Part shown: piece after piece, positions 12,252 to 16,047 of the stretch
Position numbering within the stretch: position 1 is the stretch's first letter
How the letters are laid out: every line of letters begins with the position of its first letter
From: Terriglobus roseus
GTDB lineage: Bacteria > Acidobacteriota > Terriglobia > Terriglobales > Acidobacteriaceae
DNA: 64,000 nucleotides
Direction of reading: 5' to 3'
NCBI RefSeq assembly: GCF_900102185.1
Contig: NZ_LT629690.1
Location: 1,736,001-1,800,000, forward strand
The notes under the pieces: model-generated
The model's database searches: none
What the model was told of the DNA's origin: nothing
The model's input: only the letters and a program-made list of their open reading frames with translations
Program-made: the position numbers and the translations under genes

Positions 12252-12377
12252 TTACGATTGCTTCCGATTCACTGCGGACCAGCGTGCTGCAAGCCAGATG
12301 ACTAAGGCAATGTTCGCAACGGCAACGAGGATGTAGGCGGCCCAGAGGAAGTGCATGCTGTTAACGGTGGGTTCCAT
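12252..12377 (-). CDS. ccmD: CcmD family protein (41 residues)
   Basis: A very short gene between ccmC and the propeller gene. It encodes 41 residues: a short N-terminal segment (MEPTVNSMHF), one TM helix rich in Ala, Ile, Leu and Val (about residues 11-31), and a basic tail (RWSAVNRKQS). Topology, size and position two bases after ccmC match CcmD, which stabilises the CcmABC complex and helps release haem-loaded CcmE. Such genes are easily missed because of size. Confidence 0.85.
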   Translation of the reverse strand: MEPTVNSMHFLWAAYILVAVANIALVIWLAARWSAVNRKQS

Positions 12378-12379
12378 GC

Positions 12380-13072
12380 TTATGCCTCCAGTGCTTCCAT
12401 GGCTGCGCGTTCTGCGATCTGCTGTTCACGACGAACGATGGCGTAACGCGCCCAGATGAGGGTGCATCCCCAGAAGAACCAAGCCGCAAGATTCCAAAGG
12501 AAGGCGGGCCACATGCTTGGGTCCAGCGAGCCTTCGCCGGTTAGTACCGGAGCTGGATGCTGCGTGCGCCACCAACGGATGCTCATGAATACGATGGGAA
12601 CATCAATGCCAGCGAAGACGCTGAGAACTGCTGCGATGACTGGGCCCTGGCCGCTGGATGAAAAGCTGCGAACAAGCAGATAGCTGACGTAGAGCAGGAA
12701 GAGCATGAGTGCGCTGGTGAGGCGAGCATCCCATGCCCACCAAATACCCCATACCGGGCGTCCCCACAACATGCCGGTTGCAAGCCCGAGGCCAACATAG
12801 AGCACGGTGATTTCGGCTGTGGCGATTGCCAACGCATCCAGCTTCAGAGCGAGGGAATGATTCTTACGGCGCGCCCACAGGTAGCCGATCGACGCGATCA
12901 TGTTGACGTACGGGAATATCTCAGCAGAGATATTGATGGGTACGTGCCAGTAAAAAATCCGGTAGATCGACCCCATGGTTGCTTCTACAGGGGCAACGAA
13001 CACCGCTTCGTAGAAACCCCACGCGAGCAGGGCCACGCTCAGACCGCACAACATCCAGAAGAGACGCTTCAT
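12380..13072 (-). CDS. ccmC: Cytochrome c maturation protein CcmC (haem handling)
   Basis: Membrane protein of the haem-handling family that loads haem onto the chaperone CcmE at the periplasmic face. The tryptophan-rich WGxWWAWD motif is at about residues 108-115. The flanking histidines expected to be axial haem ligands are present (FYWHVP near residue 43 and WWRTQHP near 182). Six TM helices are expected and the 230-residue length fits. It lies in the leftward operon ccmA-ybaK-ccmB-ccmC-ccmD. Confidence 0.96.
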   Translation of the reverse strand: MKRLFWMLCGLSVALLAWGFYEAVFVAPVEATMGSIYRIFYWHVPINISAEIFPYVNMIASIGYLWARRKNHSLALKLDALAIATAEITVLYVGLGLATGMLWGRPVWGIWWAWDARLTSALMLFLLYVSYLLVRSFSSSGQGPVIAAVLSVFAGIDVPIVFMSIRWWRTQHPAPVLTGEGSLDPSMWPAFLWNLAAWFFWGCTLIWARYAIVRREQQIAERAAMEALEA

Positions 13073-13113: not shown

Positions 13114-13794
13114 TTATTCGGCGTGAAGGACGGTTTCGAAGAGCAGGATGCAGGCGGTGGTGAAGATGACGTCAAACCCGAAGATGAGTCGCACCCACAT
13201 GCCGGGTTCGAAATCGCCGGTGATGACGGCGCTAGTGGCCTGCGTAACGCCAAGCAGAGCAGGGATGGAAATGGGAAAGAGTATCGCCGGTAGCATCAGT
13301 GCGCGGTTGCGGCTGCGCAGTCCAAGTGCGGCAAAGAATGTGCCGTTCGCGACAATCGCCCATGTCCCCAGTGGCAGGATCAGCCAGAGCCACTTGAGTT
13401 CGCCGAGCGGGTGCAGGTTGTAAAAAACGATAAAGACCGGCGCCAGGACGGCCTCGATGGATGCCACGAAGAGGAAGTTGGCCAGAGCCTTGCCGAGGAA
13501 GAGCGCGGACGGTGGTGCGGCGCTCATGCGGTGCGCGTCCATGACCTGATTGCGGCGTTCGCGTTCCCAAGAGATGTTGAGCGAAGTGGTTGCTGCGAAG
13601 AGTAAGCCTACCCACAGCAGGCCACCGCTCATCTGTCGAGCCATGGCGGGATAGCCGGTGGGGTCGAAGGCCATGGCGAAGGCCACGGCGATGAGCAGCG
13701 TGAAGAAGAGCATACCTGCGACGGCTTCGCGACTGCGCCATTCAAGCTGCAGGTCTTTCTTGAGGTGGAGCCAGACGGTGCGGAGATAGATCAC
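13114..13794 (-). CDS. ccmB: Haem exporter permease CcmB
   Basis: Permease subunit of the CcmAB ABC complex, which uses ATP hydrolysis to release holo-CcmE from CcmC/D. Residues 1-25 carry the typical cytosolic start (LKKDLQLEWRSRE), followed by about six TM helices; the NISWERERRNQVMDAHRMS loop is characteristic of CcmB. The length of 226 residues is normal. It overlaps the ybaK gene by four bases (ATGA), and 41 bases separate it from ccmC. Confidence 0.95.
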   Translation of the reverse strand: MIYLRTVWLHLKKDLQLEWRSREAVAGMLFFTLLIAVAFAMAFDPTGYPAMARQMSGGLLWVGLLFAATTSLNISWERERRNQVMDAHRMSAAPPSALFLGKALANFLFVASIEAVLAPVFIVFYNLHPLGELKWLWLILPLGTWAIVANGTFFAALGLRSRNRALMLPAILFPISIPALLGVTQATSAVITGDFEPGMWVRLIFGFDVIFTTACILLFETVLHAE

Positions 13795-14276
13795 TCGACA
13801 GTCACCCCATCTTTGGTCAGGTCGGCGACAGCGGCTTCGGCGGCGCGGATGTAGTCAGCGGGTGCGAGCAGGAGTTGCAGACCGCGCGTACCTGCGGAGA
13901 CGCTGATGGTGTCGAAGAGTTCCAGCGTTTCATCGGCGAATGCTCGGTACGCCTTCTTCGCGCCCATAACGGTGACACCACCGCGGATATAGCCGGTGAG
14001 TGGTTCGACGTCTTTCAACGATGCGAGTTCGGCTTTCTTGGCTTCTGCTGCTACGGCGAGCTTTTTCAGATCGAGTTCGCTGTTGCCGGGAACGACACCG
14101 AAGACATATTCACCATCGTTGAGTCGGCAGAGGAGTGTTTTGAATACCTGCTCGACGGGCATGTTGATCTTGCGTGCAACTGTGCCTGCGGTGAGATCGT
14201 CGGGGTTGACTTCGTACTCGCGGGTTTCGTACTTGATATTCAGTTTGTCCAGCAGGCGCGCGGCGTTTGTCTTCAT
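13791..14276 (-). CDS. ybaK: Cys-tRNA(Pro)/Cys-tRNA(Cys) deacylase YbaK/EbsC
   Basis: Free-standing editing enzyme of the YbaK family, which hydrolyses mis-charged Cys-tRNA(Pro). Landmarks include KTNAARLLDKLNIKYE at the start, EQVFKTLLCR, the lysine-rich KLAVAAEAKKAE helix, and GYIRGGVTVMGAKK, the family's active-site loop. The length (161) is typical. The gene sits between ccmA and ccmB with ATGA overlaps on both sides, so it is translated as part of the ccm operon. That placement is unusual, and any link between cysteine editing and cytochrome c assembly is speculation. Confidence 0.94.
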   Translation of the reverse strand: MKTNAARLLDKLNIKYETREYEVNPDDLTAGTVARKINMPVEQVFKTLLCRLNDGEYVFGVVPGNSELDLKKLAVAAEAKKAELASLKDVEPLTGYIRGGVTVMGAKKAYRAFADETLELFDTISVSAGTRGLQLLLAPADYIRAAEAAVADLTKDGVTVE

Positions 14277-14962
14277 GCCGCAGCCTCAGCCTCTGGCGTA
14301 ACGATGCTGCCATGGCGCATGTGGATGACGGAATCAGCGGCGTGCTGGACGAGTTCGAACTGATGCGTTGTGACGATGACAGTGCGCTTGCGTCCGCCTG
14401 CGAGTGGCCATGTGCGGAAGTCGAGGAGAAGCGTGACGAGTTCCTTTGCGCCAGTGACGTCCATGTTGCTGAAGGGCTCGTCGAGTAGCAGAAGTTCGGG
14501 ATCGCTGACCAACGCGCGCGCCATTGAGACGCGCTGGCGCATGCCCTGCGAGAACTGCGATACGGGACGCGTCAAGAAAGGATCGATGCCGACTGCACGC
14601 AATGCCATTTCTGGTGAACCAACGCAGTCGCACGTTGCGCCGGGATTCTGAAGGCGCAAGAAGTAGCGCAGGTTTTCCATCGCGGTCAGCTCTTCGTAGA
14701 GCATGGGCGCGTGGCTCATGTAGGCCATGCGATGACGCTCGTTGAAAGGCGTTCCGCCCAGTGTTTTCACCGTTCCTGATGTTGGGGTGATGAGTCCGGC
14801 AAGCGTGCGGAGGAGCGTGGATTTGCCTGCGCCATTGGGGCCGAGAAGGACATGGAATCCACCCGATTCAAAGGTGCAGGAGACACGCTTGAGCGCGGCA
14901 AAGCTGCCGTAGAGCCGGGAGAGGTTTGTGACCTCTGCTGCCAAATTGGGAATGGACTGCAT
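14273..14962 (-). CDS. ccmA: Haem exporter ATP-binding protein CcmA
   Basis: ATPase of the CcmAB complex. Walker A is GPNGAGKST (41-49), the signature is FSQGMRQR, Walker B is ELLLLDEP, and the H-loop histidine lies in VTTHQ. The order and size (229 residues) match CcmA. It is the promoter-proximal gene of the operon. The ATG is eight bases after a TATACT -10 element, and no Shine-Dalgarno sequence fits between them, which suggests a leaderless mRNA. Confidence 0.93.
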   Translation of the reverse strand: MQSIPNLAAEVTNLSRLYGSFAALKRVSCTFESGGFHVLLGPNGAGKSTLLRTLAGLITPTSGTVKTLGGTPFNERHRMAYMSHAPMLYEELTAMENLRYFLRLQNPGATCDCVGSPEMALRAVGIDPFLTRPVSQFSQGMRQRVSMARALVSDPELLLLDEPFSNMDVTGAKELVTLLLDFRTWPLAGGRKRTVIVTTHQFELVQHAADSVIHMRHGSIVTPEAEAAA

Positions 14963-14976: not shown

Positions 14977-15028
14977 AAGTGCGGAATCTGCTTGAGCTTG
15001 GGTTGAAAGCGTCGTTAGAGTGTTGGCC

Positions 15029-15559
15029 ATGCCAGAATTGAAGTCTTCCCACGATCCTCGGATCGTTCTTCCGCCTCCACGTCTGCATTGGGGTTGGGTA
15101 TTGGCCCTATCCGTCCTTACACGCAGCTACTTTAATTCGATCTGGATGATTGTGCTGGCCAATTGGGTACGCAAGGTAACGGGTCGCAAAGACGCGTTGA
15201 TCTGGACCATTGTGAATGTGGCCGTTATACCCGCGGTGTTCCTCATCGCGGTGATGGTGGGAGCCACAATTGGACTCATGTCGCGCGGGCAAGGTATTGG
15301 CGACACTCGCGTGCTCTATTACTCGCTGATAGCTTTTGGGATGATCGCTGTCTTAGGCAGTTACACCACCGCAGCGTTCAAGTTGAGGAGTGCGCTGGAA
15401 GAAGCGACCGTTGGCCTGGCATTTGGCGGCGTGATGACATTTCTGTTCAGCGGCACGTACTTTCAGTACTTCCTGCACGACTACGTCGTTCCGGATGCCG
15501 AAGAACTGTACGGAGCTCTTCCGACGCCACCAGCTTACGTGCCGCCGCCTACGGTCTAA
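15029..15559 (+). CDS. Four-TM membrane protein of unknown function
   Basis: I do not recognise this family. The protein has a charged N-terminus, a Trp-rich amphipathic stretch (HWGWVLAL), and about four predicted TM helices, including IWTIVNVAVIPAVFLIAVMVG and YYSLIAFGMIAVLGSY. It ends in a short acidic and proline-rich tail (PTPPAYVPPPTV). The ATG at 15029 is preferred; an in-frame GTG lies three codons upstream, and neither has a strong Shine-Dalgarno. It lies between the divergent ccmA and the convergent ccmE, which could mean a role in the same membrane process, but nothing in the sequence shows it. Confidence 0.7.
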   Translation: MPELKSSHDPRIVLPPPRLHWGWVLALSVLTRSYFNSIWMIVLANWVRKVTGRKDALIWTIVNVAVIPAVFLIAVMVGATIGLMSRGQGIGDTRVLYYSLIAFGMIAVLGSYTTAAFKLRSALEEATVGLAFGGVMTFLFSGTYFQYFLHDYVVPDAEELYGALPTPPAYVPPPTV

Positions 15560-15561
15560 AG

Positions 15562-16047
15562 CTACTTCAGAGGCGCAACAAGGGTAGCTGTTGGAGCGGC
15601 GCTCGGAGTTCCGGCGGGTTGGGTGCCGGGCTTGGCTCCGTTGGGGGCGGGGGCGTACTTGCTGGCGCACTTGGCCTGGAGTTCGGTGGCCTGGAAGACG
15701 CCGTCGCGGCCGAGGTGGCCCATGGCTAGTGCCTGGGCATCGTCCTTAAAGGTGTCTGGCGGCGGTTCCGTGCCCTGGTAGTTCACGGAGAGTTCCTTGC
15801 CTTGTTCCAGCAGCACGAACTGGGCGTGCGTGCCTGTGCGCTGGATGGAGCCGGGCTTCACGTTGCCGGCTACGCGCAGGTTGCGCTTGTAGGCCTTCTG
15901 GCCCATGGTCTGGAGTTCGCCGATGGTGCAGTAGTAGCTGGTGGCCTTGCTGTCACGCGCGCCCGCAATGGCGAGGAACAGCACAGCACCGACGATGACG
16001 ACGGTGGCGACGATGACCTTGACGGAGGAACGGCCTGACTGGGACAT
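15562..16047 (-). CDS. ccmE: Haem chaperone CcmE, cysteine (CxxxY) variant
   Basis: Periplasmic haem chaperone anchored by one N-terminal TM helix (about residues 10-28), followed by the OB-fold domain (LRVAGNVKPGSI, ELSVNYQG, HLGRDGVFQATELQAK). Classical CcmE binds haem through the histidine of an HxxxY motif; here the position is Cys127, giving CASKY (Cys127-Tyr131). Cysteine-type CcmE proteins are known from archaea and some bacteria such as Desulfovibrio, in the variant called System I*. The C-terminal 30 residues are Pro/Ala/Thr-rich. It is separate from the ccmABCD operon. No ccmF, ccmH or ccmI occurs in this window. Confidence 0.92.
   Translation of the reverse strand: MSQSGRSSVKVIVATVVIVGAVLFLAIAGARDSKATSYYCTIGELQTMGQKAYKRNLRVAGNVKPGSIQRTGTHAQFVLLEQGKELSVNYQGTEPPPDTFKDDAQALAMGHLGRDGVFQATELQAKCASKYAPAPNGAKPGTQPAGTPSAAPTATLVAPLK

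Follow-up and report, generated by a model that had tools for sequence, protein, structure and literature searches.

A probable cysteine-type System I for cytochrome c maturation in Terriglobus roseus, with CcmF and a five-cysteine CcmH encoded away from ccmE

Introduction

The ccmE gene in a 64,000-nucleotide stretch of the Terriglobus roseus genome (C1:1736001-1800000; hereafter the window) raises the question of which form of cytochrome c maturation this acidobacterium uses. Its product carries cysteine where the textbook haem chaperone carries histidine, as does the CcmE of System I*, a form reportedly defined in papers of 2006 and 2010. A first-pass annotation of the window took CcmE of this type to go with loss of CcmH, and raised the possibilities that CcmH is missing from the whole genome and that the variant system thereby extends to acidobacteria. 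The premise had already been corrected in 2011: according to Stevens et al., about one third of the bacteria with variant CcmE contain CcmH, such that its absence is not characteristic (PMC3601427). Literature searches, one of which matched whole words and could miss the word 'Acidobacteria', found no acidobacterial treatment of the cysteine-type system.

The window encodes a cysteine-type CcmE

By profile, predicted fold and residue check the ORF in question (Table 1) is a true cysteine-type (CxxxY) variant of CcmE, as the first-pass annotation had read it. Cys127 (codon TGC, 15667-15669, minus strand) is followed four residues on by Tyr131 (C127-A-S-K-Y131) and aligns with the histidine position of 12 His-type relatives; the only histidines of the protein, at positions 74 and 111, are not close to the CASKY site. 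The predicted model has a helix at residues 6-35 followed by beta strands, corresponding to an N-terminal membrane anchor and an OB-fold beta barrel, and its nearest neighbours in the PDB are the solved CcmE structures 8ce8, 1lm0, 1sr3 and 1j6q. All 17 family members sampled have the cysteine, as do 87 of the 99 genomes of the phylum that carry CcmE, which excludes a sequencing error. Moreover, a profile search of the complete genome (1 contig, 4.85 Mb, 99.98% complete) returned one CcmE match only, and a second, His-type CcmE was rejected on these grounds. (Note that the protein has another cysteine, Cys40, within YYCTIGEL (codon 15928-15930, minus strand), which is absent from the other sequences of the CcmE alignment.)

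Table 1. Positions of the genes discussed, in window coordinates unless prefixed C1.
Feature	Position	Strand	Product	Evidence
ccmE	15562..16047	-	Cys-type haem chaperone, 161 aa; CASKY	PF03100, 91.3 bits (cut-off 24.6)
(membrane protein)	15020..15559	+	probable membrane protein, 179 aa	no profile match
ccmA	14273..14962	-	ABC ATPase, 229 aa	TIGR01189, 127.5 bits, just below cut-off of 131.6; ABC_tran match
ybaK-type	13791..14276	-	Cys-tRNA(Pro) deacylase	TIGR00011, 158.4 bits, above cut-off
ccmB	13114..13794	-	membrane subunit, 226 aa	PF03379, 99.6 bits
ccmC	12380..13072	-	haem handling protein, 230 aa	PF01578, 72.7 bits; TIGR01191, 113 bits, below cut-off of 186
ccmD candidate	12252..12377	-	41 aa, one hydrophobic helix	position directly 3' of ccmC and sequence; no profile match
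ccmF and ccmH	C1:1.948-1.950 Mb			profile searches of complete genome
ccmH	C1:1949923-1950231		five-cysteine CcmH	PF03918

The neighbourhood of ccmE

The presence of CcmA, CcmB and CcmC, which had been noted earlier, is borne out by profiles, and CcmD is a candidate assigned by its position. In a motif check, CcmC was found to carry the WGIWWAWD motif together with His43 and His172. Of the seven family genomes examined, six largely preserve the order ccmE-ccmA-(ybaK)-ccmB-ccmC, with ccmA adjoining ccmE in 6/7; in the seventh genome the corresponding stretch holds only ccmE and thiC.

Two further genes lie within this stretch. The ybaK-type deacylase gene between ccmA and ccmB is a neighbour and not a Ccm component; it overlaps at its ends with the flanking genes, and its placement is kept in 4/7 family genomes, at 63-74% identity. 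The probable membrane protein, whose gene lies between ccmE and ccmA and runs in the opposite direction, has a homologue in just one of the seven relatives.

CcmF and CcmH are encoded about 0.2 Mb from the ccmE cluster

Consistent with the first-pass annotation, neither ccmF nor ccmH was found in the window, but profile searches located both elsewhere in the same genome, about 0.2 Mb from the ccmE cluster. CcmF (689 aa) has both CcmF domains and retains the ligand-histidine and WWD motifs (HPPMLY, WGGYWGWDP, FLHS, SVHAFA and YIVHFG), including four ligand histidines. Directly after ccmF lies ccmH, whose product matches PF03918 at about 51 bits (50.6-51.1; cut-off 25), and the proposal that T. 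roseus has lost CcmH was rejected because of this match.

The location of these genes bears on whether T. roseus has System I* as first defined, that is, a cysteine-type CcmE in a genome without any CcmH. Such a reading would accommodate the cysteine in CcmE, the lack of ccmF, ccmH and ccmI in the window and the 24 other cysteine-type genomes of the phylum in which CcmH was not matched. Nevertheless, the PF03918 match of 50.6 bits (cut-off 25) immediately behind ccmF, in a genome that is complete, makes it very improbable for this organism. T. roseus very probably has instead a cysteine-type System I, of which one half, for haem loading, lies in the window and the other half, for haem ligation, with CcmF and a five-cysteine CcmH, lies at the distant locus.

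An 88-aa ORF for a single-helix membrane protein is located 3' of ccmH, is kept in relatives and forms with ccmF and ccmH one cluster that is conserved among them. Its assignment as CcmI is not supported by any profile (for the general profile scans a longer frame starting at TTG was used). In addition, no match to CcmI (TIGR03142) above cut-off was found anywhere in the genome; as judged from sequence profiles, the loss of full-length CcmI stands. What the genome holds, then, is the larger part of a conventional set in the form of CcmF and CcmH, in which CcmH is unconventional, lacking LRCxxC, and CcmI is missing. The earlier description of a variant cytochrome c maturation system stands with respect to the cysteine-type CcmE, which is the sole CcmE, and the lack of a CcmI profile match; it fails with respect to CcmH, which is retained.

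Other maturation components and substrates

We also searched the genome for the remaining maturation factors. Eleven thioredoxin-like proteins matched CcmG/DsbE (TIGR00385), all of them below cut-off (best 69.1 against 123.15 bits), and one DsbD was found. The best match to ResB/CcsB (PF05140) in the genome reached 14.4 bits, below the cut-off of 24.6, which argues that System II is absent, and System II was thus rejected as the actual cytochrome c system. (Note that a gene for a CcsA-like membrane protein at C1:1.332 Mb (L009:5958-6857) lies directly before a hemA-like gene; from this context it is probably HemX rather than a part of System II.) Cytochrome c domains were matched 32 times in the genome, and 26 of these matches are above the Pfam cut-off, indicating that the maturation system has substrates.

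CcmH carries five cysteines in place of the LRCxxC motif

Where the classical form has LRCxxC, the N-domain of the T. roseus CcmH reads MMCVCGCGQILLECNHVGC; the redox motif is absent and CxCGCx6Cx4C is found instead. The five cysteines lie at positions 41, 43, 45, 52 and 57, with spacing identical to that in a relative from Chloroflexi (L221), and none of them varies among 15 bacterial homologues. The fold was modelled on the L221 protein; the closest PDB entries to this model are N-domains of CcmH, namely 2hl7 (Foldseek probability 1.00) and 2kw0 (0.95), with a weak E of about 0.13. The model suggests that the CcmH fold is likely kept in the five-cysteine form.

In 11 other acidobacterial genomes, a single reading frame of approximately 770-950 codons encodes CcmF fused to a cysteine-rich CcmH (loci L167, L157, L148, L173, L186, L183, L180, L166, L189, L172 and L179); four of these were confirmed with Pfam, which placed a CcmF domain and a CcmH domain within a single ORF. 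Fusions of this kind tie the five-cysteine type of CcmH to haem ligation. We noticed no mention of natural CcmF-CcmH fusions in the portions of the literature that we searched.

We entertained the idea that the CxCGC protein has kept the CcmH fold but lost its thiol-redox job, its cysteines binding metal or forming structural disulfides, in which case the system would in effect have no CcmH reductase, like that of Desulfovibrio. The missing LRCxxC motif is in keeping with this idea, as are the many cysteine-type genomes without CcmH, and natural CcmH-less systems do function (PMC3601427). On the other hand, the five cysteines do not vary from phylum to phylum, and the protein either accompanies CcmF or is fused to it, which fits a redox role equally well. 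We therefore regard loss of the redox job as a possibility that deserves mention but is on balance unlikely.

A proposed pathway and its known counterparts

From gene content, residues, co-occurrence and fold we infer a cysteine-type System I with the following haem chemistry, role for the five cysteines and electron route. CcmE and CcmA-D would constitute the haem-loading half of the apparatus, in which CcmC and CcmABD would load haem onto Cys127 of CcmE. By analogy with Desulfovibrio and Methanosarcina, the bond between haem and Cys127 would most likely be a thioether or a thiolate, with Tyr131 as iron ligand. CcmE would then pass haem to the ligation half, composed of CcmF, the five-cysteine CcmH and the short membrane protein some 0.2 Mb away, and CcmF would attach it to reduced CxxCH apocytochromes. 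The five-cysteine CcmH may handle or reduce the apocytochrome thiols, presumably with electrons that reach it from DsbD via a thioredoxin-like protein. Note that the cysteine of Methanosarcina CcmE is required for haem attachment (PMC9084895), and a covalent bond or a required cysteine has been described for other cysteine-type CcmE proteins (PMC9084895 and PMC3601427). Cys127 of the Desulfovibrio vulgaris CcmE has been reported to bind haem non-covalently, and both covalent and non-covalent binding have been reported for Desulfovibrio CcmE (PMC3884852).

A cysteine-type CcmE with an altered CcmH follows known precedents and is common in the phylum. The System I* of Desulfovibrio (CxxxY CcmE, no CcmH, no CcmG) resembles that of T. 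roseus in its cysteine-type CcmE and in CcmA, B, C, D and F, but T. roseus has a CcmH homologue beside CcmF, and its CcmE reads CASKY rather than CPSKY. Bacteria with cysteine-type CcmE that retain CcmH have, like T. roseus, both proteins in one genome; the passage of PMC3601427 on this point gives delta-proteobacteria, Chloroflexi and Firmicutes as examples but no acidobacteria, and leaves the CcmH motif unmentioned. The paper on the Geoglobus genome describes, for archaea with CxxxY CcmE, a cysteine-rich CcmH without LRCXXC beside a duplicate ccmF (PMC4600277). The Ccm proteins of Geoglobus and Ferroglobus are thus similar to those of T. roseus in both respects, but they are archaeal, the CcmH motif is LX[S,N]C[E,D,H]C, and two CcmH flank the duplicate ccmF. 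The CcmABCEF system of Methanosarcina acetivorans (PMC9084895) likewise has a CxxxY CcmE but is without CcmD, H and I and has CcmF split in two. With System I of E. coli (CcmABCDEFGH), T. roseus shares the CcmABCD/E and CcmF/H architecture, the CcmE fold and the CcmF histidines and WWD motif, whereas it differs in having Cys for His in CcmE, CcmH without LRCxxC, no CcmI and two distant ccm clusters.

Distribution of the two CcmE types and their CcmH partners

To place T. roseus among its relatives we surveyed 149 genomes of the same phylum (Acidobacteriota). In keeping with this phylum, sampled genome G047 has CcmH at coordinates identical to those in a named record of Fischerbacteria, a class that belongs to Acidobacteriota. 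CcmE was found in 99 of them and is of the cysteine type in 87, which is the common form in the phylum, and of the His type in 12. Every His-type genome (12/12) has a CcmH with RCxxCQ; CcmH was found in 63 of the 87 cysteine-type genomes, with RCxxCQ in none (0/63) and with about 50 CxCG(x)C-type multi-cysteine motifs and 12 PCCW motifs. CcmH was not found in the other 24, although many of these assemblies are drafts and a strongly diverged CcmH could escape detection. Thus, some acidobacteria probably do have a system without CcmH, with T. roseus not among them; the suggestion that the variant extends to this phylum finds support in other members and not in the organism that prompted it.

The split of 12:0 against 0:63 is striking when genomes are counted as independent (Fisher test, 4e-14). 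In a tree of CcmE from which the motif was left out, all His-type sequences, together with those of E. coli and Shewanella (rows taken from the PDB alignment), are set apart from the rest by one branch, with a support of 87 (not starred). In a tree of CcmH, RCxxCQ needs one change (support 86); this tree and its alignment include a row for the CcmH of E. coli. Since each trait changes once on its own tree, the idea that the split represents many independent events was rejected, and the single change per tree argues for co-inheritance of two System I forms rather than repeated coevolution. The pairing of CcmE and CcmH types is thus probably one co-inherited split.

A profile scan of named genomes for cysteine-type CcmE, which targets that type and is uninformative on the share of His-type proteins, yielded 80 loci, which are spread over many phyla. 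Among 50 genomes, most of them from outside the acidobacteria, 36 contain CcmH. The motifs read include CxCGC...C...C in Latescibacterota, Zixibacteria, Bacillota and Chloroflexi, CLCGTCP...C in Gemmatimonadota, CYACPGEPLxIDRC in Desulfobulbaceae and Geothermobacter, SPGCxYxYTLTNC in Nitrospirae, and CPVCP, with CxxC retained, in many Chloroflexota. RCxxCQ is not among the CcmH motifs read from cysteine-type genomes outside the phylum.

These data allowed us to weigh whether the CcmE residue and the CcmH motif are mechanistically coupled, such that a CcmH with LRCxxC would be unable to serve a cysteine-type CcmE. The perfect split within the phylum sample would be expected under such coupling, as would the lack of RCxxCQ in the cysteine-type genomes of other phyla. 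However, His-type CcmE and RCxxCQ CcmH are each separated from the other sequences by a single branch and hence amount to one independent event, and in Chloroflexota a cysteine-type CcmE is accompanied by a CcmH of the CPVC type, in which CxxC is retained, an observation that led us to reject a strict coupling between cysteine-type CcmE and loss of CxxC. Mechanistic coupling is accordingly improbable, and co-inheritance is the reading that we prefer.

Extending co-inheritance to bacteria at large, we tentatively raise the possibility, which we hold to be less probable than its negation, that bacterial System I consists of two co-inherited lineages. One would be the textbook form, a single clade with His-type CcmE and RCxxCQ CcmH; the other, broader one would combine cysteine-type CcmE and CcmF with a five-cysteine (CxCGCxnCxnC) CcmH, sometimes fused, or with none. 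The five-cysteine CcmH might then represent a component in its own right, acting through thiols or a metal-thiolate site and adapted to a thioether-linked CcmE.

Our findings remove one supposed case of a bacterial System I without CcmH and sharpen the question to that of the role of five invariant cysteines in a CcmH that lacks LRCxxC and occurs beside a cysteine-type haem chaperone. Genomes with CcmH, genomes apparently without it and natural CcmF-CcmH fusions provide natural material for the study of the haem-ligation step.

Two further observations concern CcmH homologues. The CcmH-like proteins with PCCW...H form a separate clade found in 12 genomes (L059:1414-1941, minus strand; also L055, L061 and L064); at L059, the one locus examined, the gene is solitary and not beside ccmF, and the protein may not be a partner of CcmF. 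Lastly, some cysteine-type genomes have two or three CcmH homologues (G185 (L208), G198 (L221), G084, G116 and G016), and in several cases the homologues of one genome belong to differing cysteine classes.
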